In this document: one piece after another, positions 46,533 to 60,170 of the stretch
Layout of the letters: every line of letters starts with the position of its first letter
Numbering within the stretch: position 1 is the stretch's first letter
Assembly: GCA_023382675.1 (NCBI GenBank)
Contig: JAHDWN010000006.1
Span: 1 to 64,000 of the forward strand
Reading direction: 5' to 3'
Source of the DNA: Anaerolineae bacterium
Lineage (GTDB): Bacteria > Chloroflexota > Anaerolineae > Aggregatilineales > Phototrophicaceae
DNA length: 64,000 nt
The notes under the pieces: model-generated
What the model saw: only the letters and a program-made list of their open reading frames with translations
Databases searched by the model: none
What the model was told of the DNA's origin: nothing
Translations under genes and position numbers: made by a program

Positions 46533-46550
46533 GTTGGCAAGAGACAATAC

Positions 46551-46630
46551 GAGCCTCAAAGACGCAAAAACGCAATGAAAAATCCTTTTGAATGAATTCC
46601 CCTTTGCGACCTTTGTGCCTTTGAGGTTCA
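46551..46630. repeat. Degenerate CGCAAAG-type repeat forming an inverted pair
   Basis: GAGCCTCAAAGACGCAAAAA at 46551 is mirrored by TTTGCGACCTTTGTGCCTTT up to 46630. The arms are imperfect inverted copies of a degenerate 7-8 bp (ACGCAAAG) unit around an AT-rich centre. It lies just after the radical SAM gene and might also act as its terminator. The rest of 46533-46862 holds the his leader described below. Confidence 0.5.
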
Positions 46631-46673
46631 AAATGAATGTGACGGGTTTGCTCGGTTGCACGCTACTTGAATT

Positions 46674-46702
46674 TTGACACGACCTTACGGCGTGGTTATA
46701 CT
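46674..46702 (+). promoter_or_regulatory. Sigma70-type promoter of the his operon
   Basis: A consensus -35 box TTGACA (46674-46679) and TATACT (46697-46702) are separated by exactly 17 bp. Transcription would start near 46709, only about 20 nt before the leader-peptide start codon. Confidence 0.8.
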
Positions 46703-46727
46703 CTTTCCACCGTTAGGAGGTTTGCGC

Positions 46728-46793
46728 GTGTTCTGCTTGACATTCCGCCACCATTATCGATATACCTCGCATCTGGTGCCGGTTCGCGACTGA
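46728..46793 (+). CDS. Putative his leader peptide, 21 residues
   Basis: GTG at 46728 is preceded by a full AGGAGG (46715-46720) at 7 nt. The short frame has three His codons, two of them adjacent (RHHYRYTSH), and ends at TGA 46791-46793. It sits between a strong promoter and a rho-independent terminator in front of hisH. That is the arrangement of amino-acid-operon attenuators, in which ribosome stalling at His codons prevents termination. The His count is modest compared with the enterobacterial leader, and I could not draw a convincing antiterminator. Confidence 0.65.
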   Translation: MFCLTFRHHYRYTSHLVPVRD

Positions 46794-46821
46794 ACACGTA
46801 TTGCTGTTTTAGATCGACAGT

Positions 46822-46849
46822 CCCCGCATCAGGCGGGGTTTTTTGTTTT
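46822..46849 (+). terminator. Attenuator terminator in the hisH leader
   Basis: CCCCGC (46822-46827) and GCGGGG (46833-46838) form a GC-rich stem with a 5-nt loop, followed by TTTTTTGTTTT. It lies 13 bp before the hisH start, and the hisH Shine-Dalgarno (AGGAGG) follows the T-run. A terminator here can only make sense as a regulated one. Confidence 0.85.
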
Positions 46850-46862
46850 AGGAGGTCGCTGG

Positions 46863-47477
46863 ATGCTGGCAGTCATCGATTACGGCGCAGGTAATTTACG
46901 CAGCGTGCTCCACGCCCTGTCCCACCTCGGCGTCGAGAGCATTCGTCTCGTGCGCACGCCGTATGAACTCAACGGCGCGCATAAAATCATCCTGCCCGGT
47001 GTCGGCGCGTTTGGCGCTGGGATGCAGAAGCTCCACGAGCAAGGGTTGGTCAAGCCGATTTCCGACGCAGTGCGTGCGGGGATTCCGTATCTGGGCATTT
47101 GCCTGGGGATGCAGTTCTTGTTCGATTACAGCGACGAAATGGGCGATCATCAGGGATTGGGGCTGCTGCCCGGCCACGTGACACGCTTTCCAGAGACGCC
47201 CGGTTACAAGGTGCCACACATGGGCTGGAATGCGCTGCGCATCGTCCGCGAGACACCGCTGCTGCGTGACCTGCCCGGCGAAGGCTATGCCTATTTCGTC
47301 CACAGCTATTACTGCGCCCCGGCGGAACCGAGCGATGTGGCGGCGGTGGTCGATTACGGCATCGCGTTCACGGCGGTCGTCCAGCGCGATAACATCTATG
47401 GCGTCCAATTCCACCCGGAGAAGAGCCAGCGCACCGGTCTGCGCATTCTGACCAATTTCCTGGAGTTGCCCGCATGA
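46863..47477 (+). CDS. hisH: Imidazole glycerol phosphate synthase, glutamine amidotransferase subunit
   Basis: HisH supplies ammonia from glutamine to HisF for the ring-closing step of histidine synthesis. The 204-residue class I amidotransferase starts MLAVIDYGAGNLRSV and has ILPGVGAFGAGM. The nucleophile Cys is in PYLGICLGMQFLF near residue 80, and the His/Glu of the triad are in GVQFHPEKSQRTG near the C terminus. KVPHMGWNAL and YFVHSYY are family-specific. It is the first gene of a tightly packed hisHAFIE operon behind a putative attenuator, and overlaps hisA by 4 bp. Confidence 0.97.
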   Translation: MLAVIDYGAGNLRSVLHALSHLGVESIRLVRTPYELNGAHKIILPGVGAFGAGMQKLHEQGLVKPISDAVRAGIPYLGICLGMQFLFDYSDEMGDHQGLGLLPGHVTRFPETPGYKVPHMGWNALRIVRETPLLRDLPGEGYAYFVHSYYCAPAEPSDVAAVVDYGIAFTAVVQRDNIYGVQFHPEKSQRTGLRILTNFLELPA

Positions 47478-48205
47478 TCATCTATCCGGCAATCGATCTG
47501 CGCGGCGGCAAAGTCGTGCGGCTGCGCGAGGGCGATCCCGACCGCCAGACAGTCTTCAGTGAAGATCCGGTCGCGATGGCGCGCCAGTGGATCGCGCAGG
47601 GTGCGCGCTGGTTGCACGTGGTCAATCTCGACGGTGCATTCGCGGCAGCCAATGATAACAGCGCGATCCTGCGTGAGATCGCGCGGTTGGGACTGCCGGT
47701 GCAGTTTGGCGGCGGCTTGCGTTCGCTGGAAGACATCGCCGCTGCGGTGGACGCTGGCGCAGCGCGCGTGATCCTGGGCACGATTGCGGTGCAGCAGCCG
47801 GAAGTGGTTGATCAGGCGCTGGCACGCTATGGCGCAGAGGCAATCTGTGTGGCGCTCGATTCGCGCGATGGTTACGTAACGACGCATGGCTGGCAGCGGA
47901 CGACAGAGATGACGGCGGTCGCCCTGGGTGAGCAGATGGCGGCGCGCGGTGTCGTTCACTGCCTGTATACCGACGTGGCGCGGGATGGCGGCCTGGCGGG
48001 CGTGAACCGCGAAGCAACCATCGACCTGGCGCGTTCGACCGGACTGCGCGTCATTGCCTCTGGCGGCGTCAACTCGCTCGACGACGTGCGCGCGCTGGCG
48101 GCGAGTCGTGTCGTCGCGGGCGCGGTCATCGGCATGGCGCTTTATGAGGGCAGAATTCAATTGGCTGAGGCGATAGACGCAGCGGGAGAGGGCGATGCTG
48201 GCTAA
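47474..48205 (+). CDS. hisA: ProFAR isomerase (HisA)
   Basis: HisA catalyses the Amadori isomerisation of ProFAR to PRFAR, the fourth step of the pathway. The 243-residue (beta/alpha)8 barrel starts [20 protein letters not shown] with the catalytic Asp, and has [25 protein letters not shown], and the second half [16 protein letters not shown] with the other Asp. [16 protein letters not shown] is the phosphate-binding turn. It overlaps hisH by 4 bp and hisF by 11 bp, so all three are probably translationally coupled. Confidence 0.97.
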
Positions 48206-48971
48206 ACGGATCATTCCCTGCCTCGACGTGATGGAGGGGCGGGTCGTCAAAGGGATCAACTTCGTCAATTTGCGTGATGCCGGGGATCCGGTGGAGCAGG
48301 CGGCCATCTACGACCGCGAAGGCGCGGACGAGCTGGTATTTCTGGACATCACGGCCTCACACGAGAATCGCAGCACGATGCTGGACATGGTGCGCCGCGT
48401 GGCGGATACGCTCTTTATCCCGTTCTGCGTCGGCGGGGGGATACGCACCATCGAAGATATTCGGGCGACACTGCTGGCGGGCGCGGATAAAGTGTCGATC
48501 AACAGCGCCGCAGTCAAAAAGCCGGAACTGATCAGCGAGGGCGCGTGGGGCTTCGGCAGCCAGTGCATCGTCGTCGCTATCGATCCGAAGTGGACAGGCG
48601 ATCATTGGGAGGTGTATATCAACGGCGGGCGCGTGTCGACCGGACTCGATGCGCTTGAATGGGCGCGCGAAGTCGAGCGGCGCGGCGCGGGCGAGATTTT
48701 ACTCACCAGTATGGATCGTGACGGCACACGCGCAGGCTACAACATCGAACTGACGCGCGCTGTCAGTGCTGCCGTTTCGATCCCCGTGATCGCATCCGGC
48801 GGTGCGGGGACAGTCGAGCATTTCTATGAGGCGCTCACGGCAGGCGGCGCAGATGCGGCGCTGGCGGCCTCGCTCTTTCACTACAACGAGCTGCGTGTAC
48901 CCGATCTCAAACGTTATCTGGATGGGCGCGGCGTACACGTGCGCCTGGATGGCTGGGAAGCTGACTTATGA
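48195..48971 (+). CDS. hisF: Imidazole glycerol phosphate synthase, cyclase subunit
   Basis: HisF uses ammonia channelled from HisH to make imidazole glycerol phosphate and AICAR. The 258-residue barrel starts [20 protein letters not shown] with the catalytic Asp 11 equivalent, and has [32 protein letters not shown] and [30 protein letters not shown] carries a substrate-site Asp, and [14 protein letters not shown] follows. Length and motifs are normal. It ends in a 4-bp overlap with hisI. Confidence 0.97.
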
Positions 48972-49297
48972 ATATCGAAGTTATTCAATGGAATGAGCGC
49001 GGGCTGGTGCCCACCATCGTGCAGGATGCCACCACACGCCAGGTGTTGATGGTCGCTTATATGAGTCGTGAGTCCCTGGAACGCACGCTCGAAATCGGCG
49101 AGACTGTTTTCTGGAGTCGCAGCCGGGCGAAGCTCTGGCACAAAGGAGAGACATCCGGCAATATCCAGCGTGTGCGCGAGATATATGTCGATTGCGATGG
49201 CGATACCCTGTTGGTAATGGTCGATGCGGCAGGCCCGGCCTGCCATACCGGCGAAGTATCGTGCTTTTATCGCCGCCTGGAGGCAGAAAGTGACTGA
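48968..49297 (+). CDS. hisI: Phosphoribosyl-AMP cyclohydrolase
   Basis: HisI opens the adenine ring of phosphoribosyl-AMP, the third step of histidine synthesis. The 109-residue protein has the family core: [57 protein letters not shown] and [15 protein letters not shown]. The Asp cluster and Cys residues bind Mg and Zn. It is a stand-alone cyclohydrolase rather than the HisIE fusion found in many bacteria. The pyrophosphohydrolase follows as a separate overlapping gene. Confidence 0.96.
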
Positions 49298-49598
49298 TAT
49301 GCTGCGTGAACTTGAACGCATCATTGGCGAACGCAAGGCGAATCCACAGCCGGAGAGCTACACGCACCGCTTATTCGAGAGCGGCACGAACAAGATCGCG
49401 CAGAAGGTCGGCGAGGAGGCGGTCGAGGTGGTGGTGGCGGCGTTGGGGCAGGGGCGCACGGAGCAGATTGGCGAACTGGCTGATCTTTTCTATCATACGC
49501 TCGTGTTAATGTCTCAGCTCGGCATTGGCCTGGAAGACGTGGACAACGAGCTTCACCGCCGCCACGCGGCCAGGCCGCAATCGCCGGCACAGGAGTAA
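49290..49598 (+). CDS. hisE: Phosphoribosyl-ATP pyrophosphatase
   Basis: HisE hydrolyses phosphoribosyl-ATP to phosphoribosyl-AMP, the second step. The 102-residue all-alpha MazG-like protein has [46 protein letters not shown] and [18 protein letters not shown], with the metal-binding EExx(E/D) and ExxD pairs. I chose GTG at 49290, overlapping hisI by 8 bp, because GGAGG lies 6 nt upstream. The ATG at 49299 would put that site 15 nt away. It is the last his gene here; hisG, hisB, hisC and hisD are not in the window. Confidence 0.95.
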
Positions 49599-53860: not shown

Positions 53861-53893
53861 AATTCGCCCCAGTCCGGGGCGAATTCGTTTTGT
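53861..53893 (+). terminator. Terminator of the BTAD regulator gene
   Basis: A perfect 10-bp stem, AATTCGCCCC with GGGGCGAATT, and a 5-nt loop lie 24 bp after the stop, followed by CGTTTTGT. It abuts the 3' end of the convergent tRNA gene. Confidence 0.9.
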
Positions 53894-53965
53894 GCCCCCG
53901 GAGAGAATCGAACTCCCGACACACGGTTTAGAAGACCGTTGTTCTATCCACTGAACTACGGGGGC
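53893..53965 (-). tRNA. tRNA-Arg (anticodon UCU)
   Basis: The minus strand folds as a complete cloverleaf. The 7-bp acceptor stem is GCCCCCG with CGGGGGC and discriminator A. The D arm is GTTCAGTGGATAGAAC. The anticodon stem-loop is ACGGTCTTCTAAACCGT, with anticodon TCT in loop CTTCTAA. The T arm holds GTTCGAT. The CCA end is not encoded. It reads AGA (and AGG by wobble) arginine codons. Confidence 0.97.
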
Positions 53966-60009: not shown

Positions 60010-60033
60010 TGGTTGGTGCTTGATCATACGCAA

Positions 60034-60120
60034 CACTCCCTACGCCGGTATGAACCGGATCAGGTTAGAGGGTCGGTGCGGCGTTACGCACCCTCTCAGC
60101 CCACTTGCGTGGACTCCCCT
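60034..60120 (-). promoter_or_regulatory. TPP riboswitch (THI element)
   Basis: Read on the minus strand, the aptamer has AGGGGAGTCC at its 5' side, the conserved GCTGAGAGGGTGCG, GACCCTCT, then ACCTGATCCGGTTCATACCG and GCGTAGGGAGTG at its 3' end. The CUGAGA and ACCUGAUC cores and the P1 strands are all present, so TPP binding is very likely. It is followed by a terminator and thiB, so high TPP should shut off thiamine uptake by early termination. Confidence 0.95.
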
Positions 60121-60170
60121 GGTAATCACGATGGTATGATAATAGTCGATTGCCGGCCGGATTTCAACGC

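Follow-up and report, generated by a model that had tools for sequence, protein, structure and literature searches.

A conserved histidine leader-peptide attenuator predicted in front of hisHAFIE in the Chloroflexota class Anaerolineae

The hisHAFIE operon and its leader region

The window analysed here is a stretch of 64,000 nt (GenBank assembly GCA_023382675.1, contig JAHDWN010000006.1) from the genome of an Anaerolineae bacterium, G000, which comprises 6.42 Mb in 110 contigs. Its forward strand carries a his operon whose genes were identified with NCBIfam profiles: hisH (46863-47477, TIGR01855), which is the first gene, hisA (47474-48205, TIGR00007), hisF (48195-48971, TIGR00735), hisI (48968-49297, NF000768) and hisE (49224-49598 by the bounds of the listed open reading frame (ORF), TIGR03188). 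The profile match of hisE starts at residue 27, so the true hisE start may be further in.

The region in front of hisH, on the same strand, starts with a promoter that consists of TTGACA (46674-46679), a 17-nt spacer and TATACT (46697-46702) and matches the consensus at 11 of 12 positions. Reading on from there, we found a Shine-Dalgarno sequence AGGAGG (46715-46720) and, 7 nt downstream, the GTG start of a leader ORF of 21 codons plus stop (46728-46793) that encodes the peptide MFCLTFRHHYRYTSHLVPVRD; a His-containing ORF is found at this place family-wide. The ORF contains the tandem His codons CAC CAT (46749-46754), here called segment 1 and presumed from reading, folding and complementarity to be the sensor, and a third His codon (46770-46772) immediately 5′ of segment 2. 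Segment 2 (46773-46782) is composed of CUGGUGC (46773-46779) followed by GG (46781-46782) and can pair either with segment 3, forming an antiterminator, or with the His codons, since the CACCA of the tandem codons is also complementary to its UGGUG. Segment 3 (46823-46832), composed of CC (46823-46824) and GCAUCAG (46826-46832), is at the same time the upper 5′ arm and loop of an intrinsic terminator hairpin, CCCCGC-AUCAG-GCGGGG (46822-46838), which was found in a scan of the window and is kept in the family. In the window the hairpin is followed by TTTTTTGTTTT, with the U tract UUUUUUGUUUU at 46839-46849, and then by the Shine-Dalgarno sequence AGGAGG of hisH (46850-46855) and the hisH ATG at 46863.

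A first-pass annotation made from these letters had already proposed the promoter, the AGGAGG-led 21-codon frame, the terminator, the ribosome-binding site of hisH and the gene order hisHAFIE; all were confirmed at the same positions, as were the three His codons, two of them adjacent (46749, 46752 and 46770). The window sequence by itself is weak evidence for regulation and exceeds chance by little. Within 3 kb, one promoter-like site was seen against 0.7 expected and three terminator-like sites against 2.6 expected, and when the 119-nt leader region was shuffled 5000 times, an ORF with at least three His codons including an adjacent pair arose 56 times. The folding energy of the leader did not differ significantly from that of shuffled sequences (z −1.44), and the minimum free energy was dropped as evidence. 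The window leader has a single His pair, and most of its relatives have more; it is conservation that settles the question.

Between a radical-SAM-like gene and the promoter, at 46550-46630, lie CUUUGCG/CCUUUGUGCCUUUGAGGUU-like repeats with an imperfect inverted copy. A similar stretch occurs 5′ of hisH at L126 and 5′ of hisG at L273.

Conservation of the leader upstream of hisH

A search (E up to 1e-60) located hisH in 89 of the 98 genomes of the window's family. All 89 upstream regions were read and 87 were usable, the region being cut by a contig end in G042 and given as N in G088. A terminator stands between the leader ORF and hisH in 86 of the 87, a promoter with at least 9 of 12 consensus positions in 84, adjacent His codons in 79 and an ORF with at least three His codons in 77; in 73 upstreams all four features occur together. 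The exceptions include G062, which is without a detectable terminator, and G107, in which the leader has decayed, as well as G057, G064, G099 and G112; in G069 the automated count took the wrong frame, and the adjacent His codons are in another one. The set used for the antiterminator search (n = 85) omits G042, G088, G062 and G107, and the set used for spacing, swaps, geometry and His counts (n = 80) further omits G057, G064, G099, G112 and G069.

The 80 leaders carry on average 3.85 His codons in the leader frame, which had been picked by its His count, compared with 0.57 and 0.59 in the other two frames. The spacing of the leader parts is tight: the stop codon ends a median of 45 nt from the first tandem His codon (IQR 42-48), and a median of 29 nt (IQR 28-32) separates the stop codon from the terminator. 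Outside the His codons the leader peptides diverge widely, while the pairing with the terminator stays. The alignment of related hisH upstreams that the first pass had suggested as a check thus retains the His codons, the terminator and the antiterminator.

Each leader pairs with its own terminator

No clear antiterminator had been recognised in the first pass. Such a pairing does exist: in the window, CUGGUGC (46773-46779) and the adjoining GG pair with CC and GCAUCAG (46823-46832; the GCAUCAG at 46826-46832) at −12.4 kcal/mol. Across the 80 family leaders, the pairing between a leader and the 5′ arm plus loop of its own terminator has a mean energy of −11.23 kcal/mol, compared with −8.99 (sd 0.23) when terminators are swapped between leaders, and not one of 20,000 swaps was as good as the own pairs. 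The same result, 0 of 20,000, was obtained when the leaders of genus g36 (n = 31) and the remaining ones (n = 49) were treated separately, and a test with a single genome per genus (18 genera) gave a mean z of −3.6. A control segment, the 60 nt that precede the His codons, gave no signal (7710 of 20,000 swaps as good). For the hisG leaders described below, 12 of 20,000 swaps were as good (n = 33), and for leaders from other orders none were (own −14.37, swapped −10.75, sd 0.50; n = 24 of 25, G165 being lost as its terminator was not found).

The sequences that pair differ by clade: GGUGUUGG with CCnCGCACC in most genera and AGAGCGA with UCGCUC in g36. Alignment A2 holds 64 of the 80 leaders, A3 and A4 together hold 68, and A5 holds 26 of the 33 hisG leaders; the 12 left out of A3 and A4 (L011, L012, L014, L017, L021, L022, L120, L122, L131, L139, L173 and L175) fit neither motif by eye. 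In the clade A alignment (38 leaders) 82.0% of the cells of the named pairs are paired, compared with 39-56% for slid partners, and in the g36 alignment (30 leaders) 76.7%, compared with 30-52%. The covariation score was matched by 1 of 500 shuffles for clade A and by 6 of 500 for g36; two stricter covariation counts were not above shuffles (91 and 193 of 500 for clade A, 228 and 137 of 500 for g36). The antiterminator pairing is specific to each leader/terminator pair, with some covariation.

Geometry and proposed mechanism

The median distance from the first tandem His codon to the start of segment 2 is 28 nt (5-95%: 21-34). If a ribosome is assumed to cover about 15-18 nt, segment 2 is free in 79 of 80 leaders with the ribosome placed on the His pair, and half or more of it is covered in 73 of 80 with the ribosome placed on the stop codon. 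Because the third His codon of the window leader abuts segment 2, a stall there would mask that segment, and sensing probably falls to the tandem pair.

What was established directly are the leader parts and how they are conserved, the pairing of the antiterminator and this geometry; from them we infer ribosome stalling, premature termination and a response to histidine. It is very probable that hisHAFIE is controlled by a classical ribosome-mediated transcription attenuator that would act as follows. RNA polymerase would initiate downstream of 46702, and a ribosome would translate the 21-codon leader. When charged His-tRNA is ample, the ribosome should reach the stop codon at 46791 and sit over segment 2, the terminator (46822-46838) would then form with segment 2 masked, and transcription would stop at the U tract. 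When His-tRNA is scarce, the ribosome would stall at 46749-46754 and leave segment 2 (46773-46782) free to form an antiterminator with the terminator's upper 5′ arm and loop while they emerge, allowing the polymerase to continue into hisH. If no ribosome is present, segment 2 may pair with the His codons, leaving the terminator unhindered.

Folding of the window RNA bears on each of these states. With a ribosome at the His pair, the nascent chain folds as the antiterminator before the 3′ arm is included, and with a ribosome at the stop codon the terminator alone remains. Once the hairpin is complete, the minimum-energy fold of the stalled-ribosome RNA is the terminator and not the antiterminator. 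Since the antiterminator is favoured solely while the nascent chain still lacks the 3′ arm, the mechanism depends on the order of cotranscriptional folding. The maximum probability with which the 5′ arm pairs with upstream RNA has a median of 1.00 for a stalled ribosome and 0.67 for one at the stop codon; by these predictions upstream pairing would still be considerable in the latter state, which counts against the model. The ribosome-free fold of the window pairs the CACCA of the His codons with the UGGUG of segment 2, and complementarity between segments 1 and 2 beats shuffles moderately (mean z −1.09 for the 80 family leaders and −2.02 for the 33 hisG leaders).

The same leader in front of hisG and hisD

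Leaders in front of hisG in sister families came to light when the family leaders were turned into a covariance model (R1) and 154 genomes of the order were searched with it. With hisG located by TIGR00070 profile matches, a His leader followed by a terminator was found in 33 of the 34 hisG upstreams read in families f2 (7 of 7), f3 (16 of 16), f6 (1 of 2) and f8 (9 of 9), and all 33 have at least three His codons and an adjacent pair. Outside these 34 stand G121, where hisG is at a contig edge, and second, divergent copies in G038, G150 and G032. No leader was recognised before hisG in the upstreams read from f4 (two), f7 (11, one of them truncated) and f1 (11). In the window genome, hisG sits behind an overlapping ORF that resembles HisZ/HisRS by the look of its sequence.

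The search was widened with a model of the hisG leaders (R2), applied to 396 genomes of the class, and with a broader model (R3), applied to 400 genomes from the phylum. Together they added 20 genomes with a leader in front of hisG and three with one in front of hisD, from families f34, f55, f42, f28, f17, f58 and f60, as well as two more leaders (G165 and G326) that lie at a contig end or have no identified gene next to them. The genes hisG and hisD were profile-confirmed at one locus each (L208 and L310), the rest by sequence resemblance. The tally of R2 matches, 80 of 396, is unfit as a frequency, as many matches cover a terminator only and the window's own leader was missed. With the class-trained R3, every match below E 1e-4 falls in the window's class; the out-of-class matches that were read (L337, L338, L340, L344, L345, L346 and L349) are not leaders, and L341 is in the class. 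When R1 was run over 80 hisH loci, 76 of them from other phyla, the only matches below E 0.001 besides the window were the Chloroflexota loci L031-L033, and L034, which is titled Anaerolineae, gave no R1 match within its 6.1 kb. As far as these loci indicate, the element tends to stand at the head of a his operon. One record, JAHHHY010000001.1, belongs to a Chloroflexota genome but carries the name of a cyanobacterium, Pleurocapsa minor, and is evidently mislabelled.

Several weak covariance matches were rejected upon reading. Among the full-length matches of the order search, L212, L216, L217, L221, L222, L226 and L227 comprise the 3′ end of a pilin-like ORF with a terminator behind it, and L213, L215, L224 and L225 are coding sequence; L214 was left without an assignment. 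The class-search match L322 is false. In family f1 (L218, L219 and L223), a promoter, a short ORF and a terminator precede a PLP-dependent aminotransferase-like gene whose best NCBIfam match, GntC, is far below the cut-off; the short ORFs are not His-rich and have no clearly dominant amino acid.

The start codon lies at most 12 nt from the −10 box in 28 of the 31 hisG leaders with a promoter of at least 9 of 12 positions (median 7 nt) and in 23 of the 79 leaders of the hisH family. A start codon this near to the −10 box places it at or near the 5′ end of the transcript, and most of the hisG leaders would accordingly be leaderless; the window leader, which has a Shine-Dalgarno sequence, is not. 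A leaderless leader peptide is known elsewhere, from trpL of Sinorhizobium, in the part of the report consulted (PMC7298713).

The same Sinorhizobium trp attenuator, whose leader RNA and peptide are described in that part of the report as acting in trans (PMC7298713), lends some substance to a different reading, in which the element is a functional His-rich micropeptide or a trans-acting terminated small RNA, the terminator is its normal end and hisH is read by leakage. Such a function may be added to attenuation. As a replacement for it we consider it very unlikely, given that the peptides vary widely outside the His codons, yet the nucleotide pairing with the terminator is conserved, and that a different his gene stands behind the element in different families.

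Relation to known regulatory elements

Attenuation could also be exerted by an aptamer, with a T-box or metabolite riboswitch as the direct sensor of histidine or uncharged tRNA-His and an incidental ORF. T-boxes do occur in the class, in front of trpE at six of the eight loci scanned, including that of the window genome (L369, G000:C15:21800, outside the window; RF00230, 95.0 bits). The T-box resembles the leader described here in attenuating amino-acid genes, and differs in that none is found at the his leader: the covariance model RF00230 had no match over it, whereas the genome's own trpE, as a positive control, did match. More broadly, no Rfam family matched the leader at its gathering score, and a permissive search gave sub-threshold matches only, the best being sroD (21.7 bits against 50) and Trp_leader (18.2 against 41), with no T-box. 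The sub-gathering matches (sroD, Trp_leader, CRISPR-DR33 and anti-hemB) were rejected as chance aided by a shared G+C hairpin and U tract. What is conserved, a His-codon reading frame with fixed spacing to its stop codon and a terminator, is nothing that a tRNA aptamer needs, and an aptamer reading is extremely improbable. Because trpE of this genome has a T-box, its Trp and His genes use different sensors of tRNA charging. Control by translation or Rho instead of the intrinsic terminator, as discussed for leader-peptide systems of Actinobacteria in the text available (PMC1262725), is hardly credible for an element with a terminator and U tract in 86 of 87 usable family upstreams and a hisH Shine-Dalgarno sequence outside the terminator.

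With ribosome-mediated attenuation as the preferred reading, the closest known system is the enteric one. The enteric his operon is preceded by a short His-codon ORF and by mutually exclusive antiterminator and terminator structures; in its leader, seven His codons follow one another directly and the RNA segments are more numerous. The Chloroflexota leaders differ in having usually two to five adjacent His codons, in a segment 2 that lies mostly within the leader ORF and pairs with the terminator loop and upper arm, and in an operon head that may be hisH, hisG or hisD; His_leader (RF00514) had no match to the window leader at gathering score, nor up to E 10 over 46600-46900. The likeness to RF00514 lies in the short His-codon ORF, the exclusive antiterminator and terminator and the position before a his operon, as far as the enteric attenuator is described in the consulted part of PMC9413887.

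The first-pass annotation had assigned His leaders to Gammaproteobacteria and T-boxes to Firmicutes. The division is not exclusive, since some Firmicutes have His leaders: candidates have been described, in the excerpts available, from the Bacillus cereus group, Peptostreptococcaceae and Erysipelotrichales (PMC9413887) and in front of hisS/hisZ in bacilli (PMC2965389). These candidates, likened here by description only, share a His-codon leader peptide, a terminator and an antiterminator and are, according to the same excerpts, known from comparison only; they differ in phylum, and those of PMC9413887 have three to five His codons in a row. The attenuators of Actinobacteria (trp, leuS and a candidate for ilvB, the candidate ilvB leaders being rich in Ile, Val and Leu) are likewise of the classical type outside Proteobacteria, and no conserved structure is reported ahead of the operons for histidine, threonine or arginine in the available text of that paper (PMC1262725).

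In the literature searched, which covered few of the subscription journals, we found no description of leader-peptide attenuation for Chloroflexi/Chloroflexota, Chloroflexus or Anaerolineae, in agreement with the first-pass statement that no case was known from such a bacterium. Within the portions consulted, the study of His leaders in three Firmicutes lineages contains the word Chloroflexi once, in a reference (PMC9413887), and another mentions Chloroflexi merely as a noisy group (PMC4833913). A 2010 survey states in its available part that, before its Firmicutes case, no such attenuator had been shown outside Proteobacteria and Actinobacteria (PMC2965389).

Sequence comparison thus points to a real, conserved His leader-peptide attenuator, which would represent a known mechanism in a lineage without a described case in the literature searched. 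The first-pass proposal of His leader-peptide attenuation finds support in the conservation within the family, in the leaders of sister families and other orders and in the pair-specific antiterminator.

Leaders for other amino acids and other RNA elements

The His attenuator apparently belongs to a class-wide habit. A leader with tandem CGA codons was found in 10 of 30 argG upstreams read in the class (L391, L385, L386, L388-L390, L394, L402, L404 and L409); these leaders end in a GUCUGG-like segment that by eye is complementary to CCAGAC in the terminator loop. One more, L339, with a profile-confirmed argG, came from the phylum search. The Arg-codon leaders, found before argG in several families of the class, apparently constitute a candidate Arg attenuator. 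For ilvB, 9 of 30 upstreams read (L444, L450, L453, L454, L456, L458, L461, L462 and L469) have an Ile/Leu/Val-rich leader followed by a terminator, and several contain GUUGGGAGG-like segments that by eye are complementary to it. Thr/Met-rich leaders precede aspartokinase genes in 4 of 30 upstreams (L419, L420, L426 and L430), and at L309 the leader MKSVHFNLNITTTTSRLPVRNLRLVK in front of an aspartate kinase gene has four consecutive Thr codons (ITTTTSR). No convincing Trp leader was seen in 30 trpE upstreams.

On these grounds we think it fairly likely that leader-peptide attenuation is the standard control of amino-acid operons in the whole of one Chloroflexota class. A single compact design, in which the last leader codons capture the terminator's loop and upper 5′ arm, would serve His, Arg, branched-chain and probably Thr operons, would move with operon rearrangement from hisG to hisH or hisD, would often use a leaderless start and would coexist with Trp T-boxes; its origin or retention would be independent of the attenuators of Proteobacteria. 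A class-wide set of this kind would contradict the view, expressed in the consulted part of a 2013 survey of 255 genomes (five of them Chloroflexi), that amino-acid attenuators may stem from Gammaproteobacteria with very few horizontal transfers (PMC3766115). It would also imply close coupling of transcription and translation in these barely cultured bacteria, and it predicts histidine-responsive regulation for many uncultured genomes. The roughly 140 aligned leaders could be used to build an RNA family model and to ask how often such attenuators arose.

Further RNA elements were noted in passing. Two aspartokinase upstreams, L422 and L425, resemble SAM riboswitches by eye (CUCUUAUCCAGAGAGGU..GGGACCGGCCC). 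On the reverse strand, the window contains a tRNA gene (53893-53965) and a TPP riboswitch (60019-60130, 64.1 bits).
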